Made by a program: the position numbers and the translations under genes
Source: Halanaerobium saccharolyticum subsp. saccharolyticum DSM 6643
GTDB taxonomy: Bacteria; Bacillota; Halanaerobiia; Halanaerobiales; Halanaerobiaceae
DNA length: 64,000 nucleotides
Direction: 5' to 3'
Assembly (NCBI RefSeq): GCF_000350165.1
Contig: NZ_CAUI01000010.1
Location: 62,001 to 126,000 of the forward strand
Shown: one piece after another, positions 1,757 to 19,002 of the stretch
How positions within the stretch are numbered: the first letter of the stretch is position 1
Layout: every line of letters starts with the position of its first letter
The notes under the pieces: model-generated
Database searches by the model: none
Told to the model about the DNA's origin: nothing
What the model saw: only the letters and a program-made list of their open reading frames with translations

Positions 1757-3148
1757 ATGGATTATAATAAAATAACAAAAGAAGATATAGAAGTATTAAT
1801 AGATATCTTAGATGATGATCGTGTAACTTTAAGAGAGGATATAAATGAGGATTATTCTCATGATGAATTAGCAGAATTGAAAGCATTTCCAGAAATTATG
1901 ATAGAACCTGAAACCACCGAAGAAGTTTCTCAAGTAATGAAATTTGCTTCTAAGAGAAATATACCGGTAACTCCCAGAGGGACTGGAACAGGACTTTGTG
2001 GTGGAGCAGTTGCTATGGAAGCTGGTATTTTATTATTAACAACTTCCATGGATCGAATTATTGAAATTGATGAGGAAAATTTGACTGCTAAAGTGCAGCC
2101 GGGAGTAATTTTGATGAATTTTTCCGAAAAAGTAAATGATTTAGGCTTTATGTATCCACCAGATCCAGGCGAAAAAAGTGCAACCTTAGGTGGTAATGTA
2201 CTAACTAATGCAGGTGGAATGCGAGCTGTTAAGTATGGTGTTACAAGAGATTATGTGCTGGGGATGGAAATTGTACTTCCCAATGGAGAAATAATTGATA
2301 CTGGAGGTAAAGTTGTTAAAAATAGTTCTGGTTATAGTATTCAAGATTTAATAATTGGTTCTGAAGGTACTTTAGGGATTGTAACAGAGATTACTTTAAA
2401 ATTAGTTCCAATGCCAAAAAAAGCATTAACCTTATTAATTCCTTTTGACAGTCTAGAAGAAGCAATTGGAACTGTACCAGAAATAATTAATGCTAAAATA
2501 GTTCCAACAGGAATTGAATTTATGGAAAAAGAGGTTTTATTAGCTGCAACTGATTATTTAGGTAAAGAATTTCCAGATACATCTGCTCCAGCCTATCTTT
2601 TGCTTAAATTTGATGGTAATGATAAAAAAGAAATAGAGAAAAAATATGAAGTAGCCGCTGATGTTTGCTTAGAGAATAATGCCTATGATGTATATATTGC
2701 TAATACAGATGAGCGTCAGGATGTAATCTGGGATACAAGAGGAGCTTTGCTTGAGGCACTAAAAGCAGTAAGTGAGCTAGATGAATGTGATGTGGTTGTA
2801 CCTAGGAATAAAGTTGCTGATTTTGTTAATTTTACTCATAATTTAGAGGATAAACATAAATTACGGATACGTGGTTTTGGTCATGCTGGAGATGGAAATT
2901 TACATCTGTATACTTTAAAAGATGACTTAGATGATGAAACCTGGCAGAAAAGGAATAAGGCAGTTATGGATGAACTCTATGCTAAGTCTAGAGAGATGAA
3001 AGGTAAAGTATCAGGAGAACACGGAATTGCAATTGCAAAAAAAGAATATTTACATGCAGATATTGGCCCGGTTCAGCTTGGCTTAATGAGGGGAATAAAA
3101 AATACTTTTGATCCGCAGAATATCTTAAACCCTGGCAAAACAGTTTAA
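1757..3148 (+). CDS. FAD-linked 2-hydroxyacid (D-lactate/glycolate) dehydrogenase, LctD/GlcD type
   Basis: About 463 residues. It has a PCMH-type FAD-binding domain (residues about 40-215, with PRGTGTGLCGGAV and PPDPGEKSATLGGN) and a FAD-oxidase C-terminal domain with the HAGDGNLH motif and a SGEHGIAIAKKEYL stretch. These are hallmarks of GlcD/D-lactate dehydrogenases. The in-frame TTG at 1754 is possible, but the ATG at 1757 sits 6 bases after AAAGGAGGA and is preferred. Directly after etfBA, it is probably the catalytic subunit of an Etf-dependent lactate dehydrogenase that oxidises lactate with NAD+ while spending reduced ferredoxin. The exact substrate is not proven; glycolate or another 2-hydroxyacid is possible. 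LarA-family racemases lie about 30 kb downstream. Confidence 0.88.
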   Translation: MDYNKITKEDIEVLIDILDDDRVTLREDINEDYSHDELAELKAFPEIMIEPETTEEVSQVMKFASKRNIPVTPRGTGTGLCGGAVAMEAGILLLTTSMDRIIEIDEENLTAKVQPGVILMNFSEKVNDLGFMYPPDPGEKSATLGGNVLTNAGGMRAVKYGVTRDYVLGMEIVLPNGEIIDTGGKVVKNSSGYSIQDLIIGSEGTLGIVTEITLKLVPMPKKALTLLIPFDSLEEAIGTVPEIINAKIVPTGIEFMEKEVLLAATDYLGKEFPDTSAPAYLLLKFDGNDKKEIEKKYEVAADVCLENNAYDVYIANTDERQDVIWDTRGALLEALKAVSELDECDVVVPRNKVADFVNFTHNLEDKHKLRIRGFGHAGDGNLHLYTLKDDLDDETWQKRNKAVMDELYAKSREMKGKVSGEHGIAIAKKEYLHADIGPVQLGLMRGIKNTFDPQNILNPGKTV

Positions 3149-3190
3149 ATTAACATTTATCTAATTTTATAGTTTTACAATAATAAGATT

Positions 3191-3237
3191 AAGCAGTCCA
3201 ATTTCTGTATAGGTCATGATTGAGGCTGCTTACTTTT
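3191..3237 (+). terminator. Probable terminator of the etf-lactate dehydrogenase operon
   Basis: AAGCAGTCC at 3191 can pair with GGCTGCTT ending at 3231 (one bulge), followed by ACTTTTTTA. It lies about 40 bases after the stop of the dehydrogenase gene. The loop is long, so confidence is moderate. Confidence 0.5.
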
Positions 3238-3243
3238 TTAAAA

Positions 3244-3270
3244 AGTAAAAACCCGCCTTGCAGCGGGTCT
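3244..3270 (-). terminator. Rho-independent terminator of the yaaA gene
   Basis: ACCCGC (3251-3256) pairs with GCGGGT (3263-3268). Read on the minus strand the stem is followed by TTTTTAC, and it lies about 25 bases past the yaaA stop. The opposite strand has no good U-run, so the direction is clear. Confidence 0.75.
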
Positions 3271-3294
3271 GAAAAAAATCATAAAAAAAGAGAT

Positions 3295-4032
3295 TTATTT
3301 TTCAAAGGGCTTAATAAAATAAAGTTCATTTTCAGAAGATTGATCTTCATTAAAAACATATCCATCCAAATTAATTTCTTTAATTTGATCTATGCTTTCA
3401 ACCTGTTTTTTGATCAATTCATTGAGCAGTTTGCCTCGATTATGTTTAACATAATAACCGACTGTTTTAAGGCTGCCATCCTCTTTTTCTTCTTTGAAAT
3501 AAAAATCTATTATCTTTCCTTCATAATTTTTTTCAACGACTTTGCTGTACTCATTTGAAGCTAAATTTATAATTAAATCAACATCAGAAAAATACTCTTT
3601 CATTACTTCCTGCCAGTATTCATAAAGATTGATTCCATTAGGTTTAAGCCTCATTTCCAACCTGTAAGGCCAGATTTCTGTATTTGAATGCAGTGGACCA
3701 TACATCGGAGAAATTATAATTAGCTTTTCCTGCATATATGAAAATTGCTCTTTATTATAGCTCTCTAAATCAATTTGTTTGAAAGCTGAGCCATTATAAC
3801 ATTCAATAGCCGGAATTGTTTGATCTTCAAAACTGTGGTTTTGAAAAAGTTCATATGTCCTATCTAAAAGTTTGCCCTGGATATCTAGTTCAGACTTTAA
3901 TTCCTTTTTTGACAATCCTTTAAGATAATTAAATAATTTTTTAGTCATATCTTTATTTGGAATATCTTTACCTTTTTCTTGGCTTTTTCTCTCGTGATTT
4001 TGAGTTTTGCTTGGTGATAATATTATTTTCAT
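3295..4032 (-). CDS. yaaA: YaaA family protein (peroxide stress response, UPF0246/DUF328)
   Basis: About 245 residues, full length for the family. The N-terminus MKIILSPSKTQ is the family signature, and the central IIISPMYGPLHSNTEIWPYR-type segment and the C-terminal KNYEGKIIDFYFKE segment are also conserved. In E. coli YaaA protects DNA and protein from oxidative damage by lowering free iron. An upstream ATG at 4041 is in frame, but the ribosome site AAGGAAAGG abuts it and is spaced correctly for the ATG at 4032, which also gives the canonical N-terminus. It is single on the minus strand, ends at its own terminator, and faces away from the CGGC gene by about 140 bases. Confidence 0.9.
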   Translation of the reverse strand: MKIILSPSKTQNHERKSQEKGKDIPNKDMTKKLFNYLKGLSKKELKSELDIQGKLLDRTYELFQNHSFEDQTIPAIECYNGSAFKQIDLESYNKEQFSYMQEKLIIISPMYGPLHSNTEIWPYRLEMRLKPNGINLYEYWQEVMKEYFSDVDLIINLASNEYSKVVEKNYEGKIIDFYFKEEKEDGSLKTVGYYVKHNRGKLLNELIKKQVESIDQIKEINLDGYVFNEDQSSENELYFIKPFEK

Positions 4033-14490: not shown

Positions 14491-15896
14491 TTGAACAAAG
14501 AAGATGGATATAAAATGCATATGAAAATCCAGCAATTAAAAGAAATAGGATTAAATAAATCCCAGATTGCAAGAAGATTAAATATCAGCAGACCAACACT
14601 CAATAAATACTATGACTTAAATACAGAAGAATTTAAAGAAGTTCTTCAGTCAATGAGTACCAGAACTAAAAAAGCAGATAAGTATCATGATAAGATTCTA
14701 AACTGGCTAAAAGAACATCCTGATATCTCAGCTTCTCAAATCTATGACTGGATTGAAGAACAGCTTAACGGATATCCTGGTTTCACAGAAAGTACTCTTA
14801 GAAATTACATAAGAGATTTAAGAAAAGAGCATAATATACCCAAAACAAAGCATCCCAGGATCTATGAGGCAGTTGAAGATCCGCCAATGGGTCAGCAGAT
14901 GCAGGTTGATATGGGTGAAAAATGGGTCTACAAAGCAGATAAAATCACCAGAGTTAAGCTCTATCTCATTGCCTTTGTTCTCTCCCATTCTCGATACAAA
15001 TATGTAGAATGGTTTGATAGACCATTAACTACAGCTGATGTAGTAGCAGCTCACGAAAATGCATTTGAATACTTTGAAGGCATACCAGAAGAAGCTGTCT
15101 ATGATCAGGATAGTTTAATCCTGTACAGTGAAAACTATGGTGATTTAATTTACACTCACCAGTTTGCATCATATAGGCTTGAAAGAAAATTTAGAGTATA
15201 TATGTGTAGGGCGGCTGATCCTGAATCTAAAGGTCGTATTGAAAATGTTGTTGGCTATGTAAAAAATAATTTTGCAGCTCATAGAACATTTATCAATTTA
15301 GAAAAGTGGAATGAGGATTGTCTTAAGTGGCTTGAACGCCGTGCTAATGGGAAAATATATGGCACAACAAAAAAATACCAGCTCAGGTATTAACCGTCGA
15401 AAAGAAATACCTGAAGCCGGTATCCGAAAAAATTAAAAATAATTCTTCTGACTTAAGTATAACTTATCAGGTGAGAAAAGACAATACTATCCCGATAAAA
15501 GGTAACAGATATTCTGTTCCATTAGGCACCTATCAAGGACCTGAAAGCTATGTTAAAGTGCTTGAGGACAATGATAAATACTTGATATATGATTTTGAAA
15601 GTACAGCTAAACTGGCAGAACATAAAATAATAAGAACTAAAGGTAAACTCTCTAAAAATAGAGATCACGGTAGAAAGAAATCTGATAATATTGACAAACT
15701 GATAGAAAAGATAACTCTTCTCTTTCCTGATCACAAAAGAGCAGATAAATTTTTAGCAAGAATCAGAAAAGAAAAACAGCGATATATCAGGGAACAACTG
15801 CTTGTAATAGAAAAAGCTTTAGAAGATAAAGATTCTGAAACTATCACAGAAGCATTAGAATACTGTATAGGTAATAAAACTCTCCAGTGCCAGTGA
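14491..15896 (+). pseudogene. istA: IS21 transposase IstA, frameshifted
   Basis: The first frame (14491-15393, 300 residues) holds an N-terminal helix-turn-helix (GLNKSQIARRLNISRPTLNK) and the DDE core (QMQVDMGEKW for the first Asp, VYDQDSLILYS for the second, ADPESKGRIENVVGYVK for the Glu). The protein resumes in another frame as IPAQVLTVEKKYLKPV and continues to 15896 with the C-terminal Mu-type beta-barrel region. The change of frame is at a run of seven A at about 15369. Either a real -1/+1 frameshift or a homopolymer error would explain it. Start is TTG at 14491 behind AAGGGGG. Confidence 0.85.
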
Positions 15897-16552
15897 TTTT
15901 AGAGATATCATTAGTTATTACGATAAAGAAAAAATCAAGTCTAAAAATGATGATATTTTACTGGTAGCTGATAATATAGCTTTAAATGAAAAAGATAAGG
16001 CTAAACTTGCTGCTAAACCAGCAGTAAGAGATCTTGATGTCTATCAAAAGATATTTGACTCTTAAAACTGGAGGTATAAATGACAATCACAATTGAAAAT
16101 CTAAAAGATAAATTTAAAGTTTTAAAGTTAAAAAATGCCTCTGATAATATATCAGAAATCATATCTCATGCTGTTGAAAATTATTTTCCCAGCGAAAAAT
16201 TATTAGAATATGTATTAGACCAGGAGATTGAGGCACGAGAAGAAGCTCGCCTAGAAAAATATTTGAAACAAGCTGCATTCCCATAGTATAAAACTCTGGC
16301 TGAGTTTAATCTTGAAGAACAGCAGTCATTATATAAAAAACAGTTTAACCAGTTTAAAGAATTATCCTTGCTTGAGCGTGGCTAAAATAGAGTACTGCTT
16401 GGTCCTTTAGGAGCAGGCAAAACTCATCTGAGCATCGGCCTCGGCATTCATGCCATCAACGAATGCTACCAAGTAATCTTTGCAGCTATTAGTGATTTAA
16501 TCTACTGGCTTAAAATTGATGAAATGATTAGATATTATAAAACTAAACTCAA

Positions 16553-16567
16553 TAGAGTTTTAAAGAG
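16553..16567 (+). repeat. Left copy of 15-base target duplication of the IS30 element
   Basis: TAGAGTTTTAAAGAG, identical to 17749-17763 on the other side of the element. 15 bases is longer than the 2-3 bases usual for the IS30 family. Confidence 0.8.
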
Positions 16568-17748
16568 GTGAATTGCAAGTTGCAATGCACGGTTTTTTTT
16601 GATTTTTTAAAAATTACCTGTACCTTAAGTATTTCTAGATGCTGAAACTAAGTTTTTCTCTAAATAATTCGTCTGAATTTCCGTAGCCAAACATTTTTCT
16701 GGGATAAGTGTTTATAAATTCCTGAATCTTTTTTACTAGGGTTCTTTTGATCCCTTTGAAGCTTGTGCCTTTAGGTAAGAATCTTCGGATAAACCTGTTA
16801 GCTACCTCATTTGAGCCTCTCTGCCAGATGCAGTATGCATCGCAGTAATACTGACTGGTTCTTGGGATACTGCTACCTGTAAAAGATTCTTCAATTCCTT
16901 CATAATCTGCAAATTCTGCTCCATTGTCTGTAGTGATTGTTTTGAATGTCTCTCTGAAATTCACTACTCCAAATCGTCTTTCTATACGATCTAACCCCTT
17001 TACCACAGATTCTGATTTCTTGTTTGGTATTTTTTCTATGATTTCCTGTCTGGTCTGTCTTTCTGTTAAAACCAGTAAAAATGGCTCTCCTTTTTCCTTT
17101 AAACCCTCTACCAAATCCATCTCCCAGTGTCCAAATTCTTCCCTGGTATCAGCTTCTTCAGGTCTGTCCCTAATTGTCCGGCCTTCCTTACGTCTAGTAG
17201 TACTAGCACTTTCTTTAGGCCTATCTTTTTCAACTTTATAGTTACCATGTATGAGATCATCTCTATCTATATCCAAAACACCTTTATCTATATAATTATA
17301 GATTGTTTTCCAGTGTAGTTCTGTCTCATAATCATCTGATTTTTTAATATCATCTACTACTGCTGCAGGAGATCTTAATTTAAGTATTTGCTCTTTTATA
17401 AATTCTGCTAATTTATTATTATCGCCTATTTTTAAATCCGGTCCTTTAGCAGTATTCTTTTGCTCTATTTCACCCTTTTTAATTTCACGACTTACTGTAG
17501 TTCTATGACAGTTTAGTTCTTTACCTATTTCAGTATAATTTTTATCCTGTTGATTGTATAGATGTTCTATCTTTACGCGATCTTCATAACTTAGGTGTTC
17601 ACCTTTGCTTCTTTTTGTGTTACAATTACTTTGACACATATTCTGTACCCTCCTAATGTTTTTGTGGTTATTAACATTATACAAAAGGTACAGGTATGTG
17701 TCTATTTTTTTATCAAATTACCGCGTGCATTTAATTATACAATTTATT
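16568..17748 (-). mobile_element. Complete IS30-family insertion sequence (1181 bp) inside istB
   Basis: The ends are imperfect inverted repeats: AATTGCAAGTTGCAATGCACG on the left and, on the complementary strand of the right end, AATTG...AATGCACG; both then continue to ACCTGTACC. It is flanked by identical 15-base direct repeats and encodes one intact transposase on the minus strand. A deleted relative lies at 51294-51490. Confidence 0.85.
16635..17639 (-). CDS. IS30 family transposase, apparently intact
   Basis: About 334 residues. The N-terminal helix-turn-helix HLSYEDRVKIEHLYNQQ, with NCHRTTVSREIKKG, is the IS30 DNA-binding signature. The DDE catalytic domain has FGHWEMDLVEG for the first Asp, TDNGAEFADYEG for the second, and RGSNEVANRFIRRFLPKGTS for the Glu; all three acidic positions are present. 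The start at 17639 follows AGGAGGG by 8 bases; the longer frame from 17684 lacks a ribosome site. No frameshift or stop was found, so the element could be active, unlike the IS21 element around it. Confidence 0.92.
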   Translation of the reverse strand: MCQSNCNTKRSKGEHLSYEDRVKIEHLYNQQDKNYTEIGKELNCHRTTVSREIKKGEIEQKNTAKGPDLKIGDNNKLAEFIKEQILKLRSPAAVVDDIKKSDDYETELHWKTIYNYIDKGVLDIDRDDLIHGNYKVEKDRPKESASTTRRKEGRTIRDRPEEADTREEFGHWEMDLVEGLKEKGEPFLLVLTERQTRQEIIEKIPNKKSESVVKGLDRIERRFGVVNFRETFKTITTDNGAEFADYEGIEESFTGSSIPRTSQYYCDAYCIWQRGSNEVANRFIRRFLPKGTSFKGIKRTLVKKIQEFINTYPRKMFGYGNSDELFREKLSFSI

Positions 17749-17763
17749 TAGAGTTTTAAAGAG
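17749..17763 (+). repeat. Right copy of 15-base target duplication of the IS30 element
   Basis: TAGAGTTTTAAAGAG, identical to 16553-16567. The istB frame continues immediately after it. Confidence 0.8.
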
Positions 17764-18055
17764 TGATCTTTTAATTATCGATGACATTATGTTTATGGCT
17801 ATGGAAAAGCAGGAATCCAACCTCTTTTTCCAGCTGATAAACAAACTGTATGGTTAGACTTAAATTATTATCACCTCAAATAAAGGTCCTTCAGACTGGG
17901 GTGAATTGATAGGTGATCAGGCTATTACAGCTGCAATTTTAGATCGTATAATTCATAAGTGCTAAATCATCAATTTAGATGGTGATAGCTACAGATTGAC
18001 TTACAGAGAAACCATTTTTAAAAATTATTGGGTGTAAAATCTTATTTAACATTCA

Positions 18056-19002
18056 CAATAAGATCCCACTAATAATTATTACCGGCTTCTTGGGAGCAGG
18101 TAAGACAACATTTTTGAATAATTTACTGGGGCAGCTTAAAGATAAAAAAACTGGAGTTATTGTTAATGAGTTTGGTGAGACTAATGTAGATGCCAAGATG
18201 CTTGATTTGGAAAATGATGATGGCATAGTTGAAATAAACAACGGTTCTATTTTTTTGCAGCTGTTTATCAGGGTCTTTTGTAGAATCGATATTATCATAC
18301 AAGGATATTGACTTAGACTATTTACTAGTTGAGAGTTCGGGGATGTCAAGACCTAAAAGTATCGACAGCATTTTAGCTGATGTGGCTAAAATAACAGATG
18401 ATAGATTTGATTTTAGAGGAATGATTAGTATAGCAGAGGCTTCTAATTTTAATAAGATTTTTAAAGCATTAAACTTGGCCAGAGAACAGGTAGCATACAG
18501 TGATTTGGTTATAATTAATAAAACTGACTTAGTTGATAATAAAGAATTGGATAAGATTGAAAGCATAATTATTTCTTTAAATCCAAGTGCAGAAATAATT
18601 AAAAGCAGTTATTCTGAGCTTAATATAGATATCCTGGAAAATAATTTTTCTTCTAATAAAGATGTTGGAAAAATTTGAAAGAAGATGGAATTTACTGACT
18701 TAAATAAACCAGAAAATATCATACTGGAGTTTGAGAATGAACTTAAAATTGATAAACTGAAAAGTTTAATCAAAGAACTATCCACCTATTCTCATAGGAT
18801 TAAGGGCTTTGTTTATTTTGTTAATATAAAAAAGAAAACTACTTTAAAATCAAAAAAATCACTCCAGGGAAGGGAGTGGGATAAAAATGAGAAAAATATC
18901 TATTTTTTTAAAATGAATAAGCTAATTTTTTTGCTAGAAAAGCGAACAAATGCATATAAAAATAAAAAAGAAAGAGCTGATTATTTGAACTTTAAAGAAT
19001 GA
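18056..19002 (+). pseudogene. CobW/COG0523-type metal-chaperone GTPase, disrupted
   Basis: The N-terminal sequence KIPLIIITGFLGAGKTTFLN carries the CobW P-loop, and EINNGSIF followed in another frame by CSCLSGSF gives the family's CxxC-type region. YLLVESSGMSRP is the switch region, and VIINKTDLVD is the guanine-specificity NKxD motif. The conserved C-terminal domain starts at about 18690. Three lesions are visible: no start codon, because the IS21 end replaces it; a one-base frameshift at a run of seven T at about 18250-18256; and an in-frame TGA at 18676. The last ~60 residues no longer resemble CobW. Such GTPases deliver zinc, cobalt or iron; this copy is almost certainly dead. Confidence 0.82.

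Follow-up and report, generated by a model that had tools for sequence, protein, structure and literature searches.

The IS30-type element inserted in an IS21 remnant of Halanaerobium saccharolyticum very likely represents an IS30-type subfamily that joins its ends to the target with a 14-bp stagger, as a rule just upstream of a sigma-A promoter and with the 3' end of the transposase gene facing that promoter. The duplication, the fixed ends, the single orientation and the distance to the -35 box are seen directly in the copies compared. IS30-family elements in general duplicate 2-3 bp of their target, and a sequence-only reading of the window, the whole stretch of 64,000 nucleotides analysed here, had pointed to a duplication of 15 bases as the possible mark of a subgroup with another cutting geometry. 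The comparison of copies from related genomes supports such a subgroup.

The element occupies 1182 bp (16567-17748), and its transposase reads on the minus strand. Its ends were fixed with copies taken from related genomes, in which 14-bp repeats directly abut the element. In the window, one copy of the repeat lies at 16553-16566, adjoining the 3' end of the transposase at the right end, and the other at 17749-17762, adjoining the 5' side at the left end. The repeat proposed earlier is genuine, being present at both ends here and common in relatives, and only its length needs correction. The 15-mer TAGAGTTTTAAAGAG does occur both at 16553-16567 and at 17749-17763; because the element of close relatives terminates in ...TTGCAATTCACC, base 16567 is the element's own and the match at 17763 a chance one, which sets the duplication at 14 bp with base 16567 inside the element. 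The left terminal inverted repeat (17719-17748) contains the subfamily signature TTGTATAATTAAATGCAC, and the right one (16567-16596) is imperfect, matching the left end at 17 of 30 positions. Two minus-strand hexamers with putative promoter roles sit near the ends: an outward-facing, -35-like TTGCAA (16573-16578), 6 nt from the right end, and an inward-facing, -10-like TATAAT (17734-17739), 9 nt from the left end.

The surrounding DNA bears out the nesting in IS21. An istA remnant of two plus-strand ORFs spans 14491-15896; the first (14491-15393) matches the IstA profile at 184 bits (cut-off 160), and the second (15471-15896) is a putative istA piece. The istB remnant left of the insertion (16080-16552, plus strand) is recognised from its translation and from a weak profile match of the piece at 16080-16286, which falls under the family cut-off, and the remnant on the right (17763-18040, plus strand, end approximate) from its translation. 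Translated apart rather than joined, both istB pieces fall in the same frame if 1196 bp are subtracted; NRVLK closes the left piece (AGA codon at 16554) and RVLKSDLLIIDD opens the right one (AGA codon at 17750). This agrees with the earlier statement that excision restores the istB frame. The gene is also damaged elsewhere, by one in-frame stop in the left piece and several in the right. Beyond the right piece, 18053-19002 holds several short ORFs with a GAGKTT motif, which resemble a broken CobW-type GTPase gene.

The transposase ORF (16635-17684, minus strand, 349 aa) belongs to the IS30 family, as had been read from the sequence: it matches NCBIfam NF033563 at 195 bits (cut-off 80), among the PHROGs it matches phrog_4646 ("integration and excision: transposase") best, at 304 bits, and it carries an N-terminal helix-turn-helix, PF13936 HTH_38, at residues 27-70. 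PF00665 scores 32.3, marginally below its cut-off of 32.6. The Pfam and NCBIfam matches are confined to HTH_38, rve, IS30 and IS481, with no Mutator-type transposase among them. The enzyme had been called intact; in fact, 22 residues present in all six aligned relatives are missing, through an in-frame deletion of 66 nt at 17456-17457 (minus strand) between residues 76 and 77, and the frame is otherwise open. In the related locus L117, the stretch missing from the window protein is flanked by two GAGCAAAA repeats. This is the single ORF of note in the 1182 bp, and the element is an IS, not a phage. The 2.87-Mb genome has one copy of it, no other IS30-family match and no second copy of the istB DNA. 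As described below, there is also no clear promoter at its site; with a dead istB as target and a transposase lacking 22 residues, the window copy is atypical.

The fetched Halanaerobiia loci contain 81 distinct left ends, 48 of them with a right end (47 found by motif and one, L184, by its repeat); 34 of the 81 have no right end by motif, many of these at contig ends, and some further signature places at contig ends lie outside the fetched set. The signature TTGTATAATTAAATGCAC was found in 23 of 59 genomes of the class, and its backward-read pattern matched in none of them. The outer bases are constant throughout: the left end starts 9 nt ahead of the TATAAT within TTGTATAATTAAATGCAC, and the right end halts 6 nt past TTGCAA. 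A duplication flanks 39 of the 48 two-ended copies, as an exact 14-mer at the fixed ends in 34 and as 13 bp or with one mismatch in five, and all 39 right flanks differ from each other. The duplicated sequences are rich in A+T (83%, versus 71% over the 200 bp on the left side). Additionally, the site filled in L115 is vacant in genome G010, where a single copy of the repeat is present and the -35 and -10 boxes are kept. At a second such site, filled in L113, G010 has no insertion and keeps a tRNA-Leu promoter; 22 bp around the site are unalignable there, so that a single copy is unreadable.

These flanks bear directly on whether the element is an ordinary IS30 relative with a short duplication, its repeat a coincidence or a product of recombination between copies. 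E. coli IS30A does carry a 2-bp repeat in the copy we inspected, as IS30 is described in the accessible part of one paper (PMC9333248), and 9 of the 48 two-ended copies lack a matching repeat. Against this stand 34 exact 14-mers abutting identical ends, 39 distinct flanks and a relative's empty site with one repeat copy. We consider the short-duplication or coincidence reading refuted by so many independent 14-bp repeats, and its being right after all hardly credible.

The right flanks were scored for sigma-A boxes (TTGACA, 16-18 bp, TATAAT), with a distance window of 10-13 bp that was set after the Halanaerobiia flanks had been viewed. In 33 of the 39 duplicated sites, the best match lies 10-13 bp beyond the duplication and reads away from the right end. 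The order is thus right end, 14-bp duplication, 10-13 bp and -35 box, which places the -35 box 24-27 bp from the right end, and the 3' end of the transposase is always toward the promoter. The same distance yielded 4 of 39 in left flanks read outward and 3 of 39 on the other strand of the right flanks; 300 dinucleotide-shuffled sets gave a mean of 3.5 and a highest value of 10. Compared with 20,000 random window sites, 31 of the 39 sites reach at least the 99th percentile at that distance. The six remaining sites include the window copy, whose score of 6.1 at 10-13 bp, not a good promoter, is equalled by 22% of random window sites. Genes follow several of these promoters: tRNA genes start 52-151 bp past the duplication at 5 of 38 scanned loci (L113, L135, L136, L137 and L140), so several of the promoters serve real genes. 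A crude search for gene starts (a ribosome-binding site plus an ORF within 300 bp) succeeded in 17 of 39 right flanks versus 7 of 39 left flanks, an excess that lends weak support to the promoter reading.

The promoter signal might instead arise from selection acting on a real duplication, insertions within genes being lost and those at A+T-rich, promoter-near intergenic sites being left. The A+T-richness of the duplicated sequences would fit, and insertions in genes do occur, the window copy being one. Yet selection for intergenic sites would not fix one distance of 10-13 bp together with one orientation, there is no peak in the left flank or on the opposite strand, and the peak recurs in phages whose transposases are about 40% identical. 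We regard this account as unlikely. What exactly is recognised is a separate matter. The transposase may itself read the -35 and -10 hexamers, with no part for RNA polymerase, which we rate as possible and somewhat short of probable: a TTG and a TATAAT-like block are visible in the unfitted column counts over the 39 sites, but few transposases in which one helix-turn-helix is recognised would be expected to read a bipartite target of 30 bp at a distance of 11 bp, and sequence data cannot separate DNA reading from contact with the polymerase.

More distant relatives provide a better promoter test than the Halanaerobiia, even if some of their flanks had also been viewed beforehand. Of 57 relatives less than 50% identical, 35 have the right-end motif, and the 22 without it were excluded from the promoter test. 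Among these 35 clostridial right ends, from relatives about 40% identical, 26 have the promoter at 10-13 bp and nine fall outside that window; the other strand gave 2 of 35, and shuffles gave a mean of 3.1 with a highest value of 8. A generic search that paired repeats with inverted repeats succeeded for close copies and returned chance matches for most clostridial loci with their 3-kb flanks, because the left ends turned out to lie 11-52 kb away in five of six elements. For these six, up to 60 kb upstream was examined; an exact 14-bp repeat marks the distant left end in five (L050 at about 39 kb, L073 at about 48, L087 at about 51, L105 at about 52 and L094 at about 11), and none was found in the 38 kb fetched for L047. 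Phage genes are present in all three elements checked: tape measure, terminase, portal, major head and endolysin in L050, terminase and portal in L105, and endolysin and baseplate in L094. Another clostridial locus, L066, has an exact 14-bp repeat at just 2068 bp, unlike the elements of 11-52 kb, which leaves room for clostridial members that are not phages.

Faecalibacterium phage Lagaffe, with 40% identity to the window protein, is among the best matches in the phage collection. Its right end directly meets its left end in a junction that reads TTGACT-16-TAATAT; the corresponding junction of phage nd4 is TTGACA-17-TATCAT, and the clostridial locus L074 has TTGACA-17-TATAAT. By pattern, the junction is present in two of the seven phage records examined and absent from five, and the IS itself yielded no joined-end circle. 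A 9.3-kb inovirus record (bajarodino virus 13, PQ006184.1, L248) also encodes, at 2428-3510, a transposase with 39% identity to that of the window, and filamentous phages may use such a transposase too.

Given these ends, we infer an IS30-like first step in which the element would form a circle, its two ends separated by about 0-2 bp; this spacing follows from the positions of the hexamers, 6 and about 9-10 nt inside the ends. The joined ends would create a strong promoter, with TTGCAA or TTGACA about 17 bp from TATAAT, and then attack the target strands 14 bp apart rather than 2 bp, at a point set by the promoter or by RNA polymerase bound there. In this reading, the integrase of clostridial temperate phages is a transposase from the same clade, and it duplicates and targets the host DNA in the same manner. 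The window copy would be an old insertion of this kind into the istB of IS21, at a site that has no clear promoter, followed by the loss of 22 residues.

The range of both traits was followed in a tree of 51 transposases. Support is 100/100 for the 13 Halanaerobiia rows and 100/99 for the 22 rows from clostridia and phages; the two groups join at 94/86, which is under the mark for strong support. L211 and L220 come next (100/99), and E. coli IS30A, L214/L216 and L223 lie outside. Twenty outgroup IS30 loci were fetched. Nine (L206-L210, L217, L221, L222 and L224) have repeats, eight of 13-15 bp and one of 21-22 bp, and 11 have none by script, L213 among them showing 13-15 bp by eye. The long repeat is that of L207, whose sister copies have 13-15 bp. 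Macrococcus copies show about 13 bp by eye in two of five (L201 and L202) and none in three, and the Lactococcus copy L196 has no repeat. The 13-14 bp duplication, as read from these flanks, thus extends beyond the subgroup. No promoter was found at 10-13 bp in any of the nine outgroup right flanks scored (L217 excluded, the repeat-less L219 included), and on this small sample the long duplication appears to predate promoter targeting and to be more widespread. In four of the nine (L206, L207, L209 and L222), the promoter score peaks 20-22 bp beyond the 14-bp mark, about one helical turn further out than in the main clade, which would put the right end perhaps 34-36 bp from the -35 box; four of nine are too few for a claim, and a search for further L206-type copies found none.

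Known systems display these traits apart, as far as the accessible portions of the papers go. IS30 shares the transposase family, and its ends join via an IR-IR junction that forms a promoter (PMC9333248), which fits the end hexamers described here; in contrast, its duplication is 2 bp instead of 14, and it inserts at hot spots or into its own ends, whereas the present clade targets promoters. IS1630 of Mycoplasma fermentans resembles our element in combining an IS30-type transposase with long duplicated junctions, of 16, 23, 25 and 26 bp (PMC3317919). Since the IS30 family already includes IS1630 with its 16-26 bp, we let family membership rest on the transposase and treat the 14-bp duplication as a variant trait. 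IS1630-like behaviour as a full account of the element, to which the 21-22 bp repeat of L207 might also be counted, is nevertheless very unlikely: lengths in IS1630 vary, the target named in the available text is inverted repeats and no promoter rule was seen there, whereas nearly all duplications here measure 14 bp, and what the sites are seen to share is a promoter rather than a hairpin. The IS1202 group likewise has long duplications (16-28 bp) with a transposase of a different family, and the part of PMC10132070 available to us names no target for the long-duplication group.

Insertion at a fixed place before promoters is known from TnGBS, ISLre2 and some ISKra4 elements, which insert 13-17 bp from sigma-A promoters and encode Mutator-type transposases (PMC3942029), unrelated to IS30 by the classes given in the accessible text of that paper. 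Measured from the -35 box to the right end, their distance is 15-17 bp, compared with 24-27 bp (14 plus 10-13) here. In the accessible text on Lagaffe (PMC5883640), its integrase is called an IS30 transposase, and direct repeats at the ends of the prophage came as a surprise to the authors; that integrase falls in the same clade as the window transposase, in a 48-kb phage as opposed to a 1.2-kb IS. In the open-licence literature, in part accessible to us, we found no report of a fixed 14-bp duplication or of promoter targeting in IS30-type elements or phage integrases, and none of long duplication and promoter targeting together; subscription papers and ISfinder may hold part of this.

Two traits so far found reported only apart, the long duplication of IS1630 and the promoter targeting of TnGBS, are joined in the present elements, as a long fixed IS30-type duplication with a fixed insertion before the promoter. 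We tentatively suggest, as a picture rather less likely than not, that IS and temperate phages share one promoter-seeking IS30-type clade. DNA bound by RNA polymerase, or the promoter DNA itself, would capture the joined ends, with joining at points 14 bp apart on one helix face upstream of the -35 box, so that an element or prophage could insert and leave genes unbroken. The distances from right end to -35 box in TnGBS (about 16 bp), this clade (24-27 bp) and perhaps the outgroup (34-36 bp) differ by about one helical turn, as if several unrelated or distant transposases docked on the same face. The two traits together offer a simple explanation for the repeats at the Lagaffe ends, and the target rule is precise enough for direct testing. 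Phage FP01, described in 2026, was given conflicting lifestyle predictions, and its IS30 transposase orf43 was taken for an acquired insertion sequence, with no integrase, in the accessible text (PMC13432834); if orf43 belongs to this clade, it would be a candidate integrase, which may help in judging gut phages.

Four short derivatives were observed among the Halanaerobiia loci, each retaining both ends and flanked by a duplication of the length described above: 252 bp in L184 (2020-2271), 565 bp in L192 (1734-2298), 660 bp in L191 (418-1077) and 1018 bp in L193 (416-1433). From their structure, such non-autonomous copies seem to have been moved in trans.
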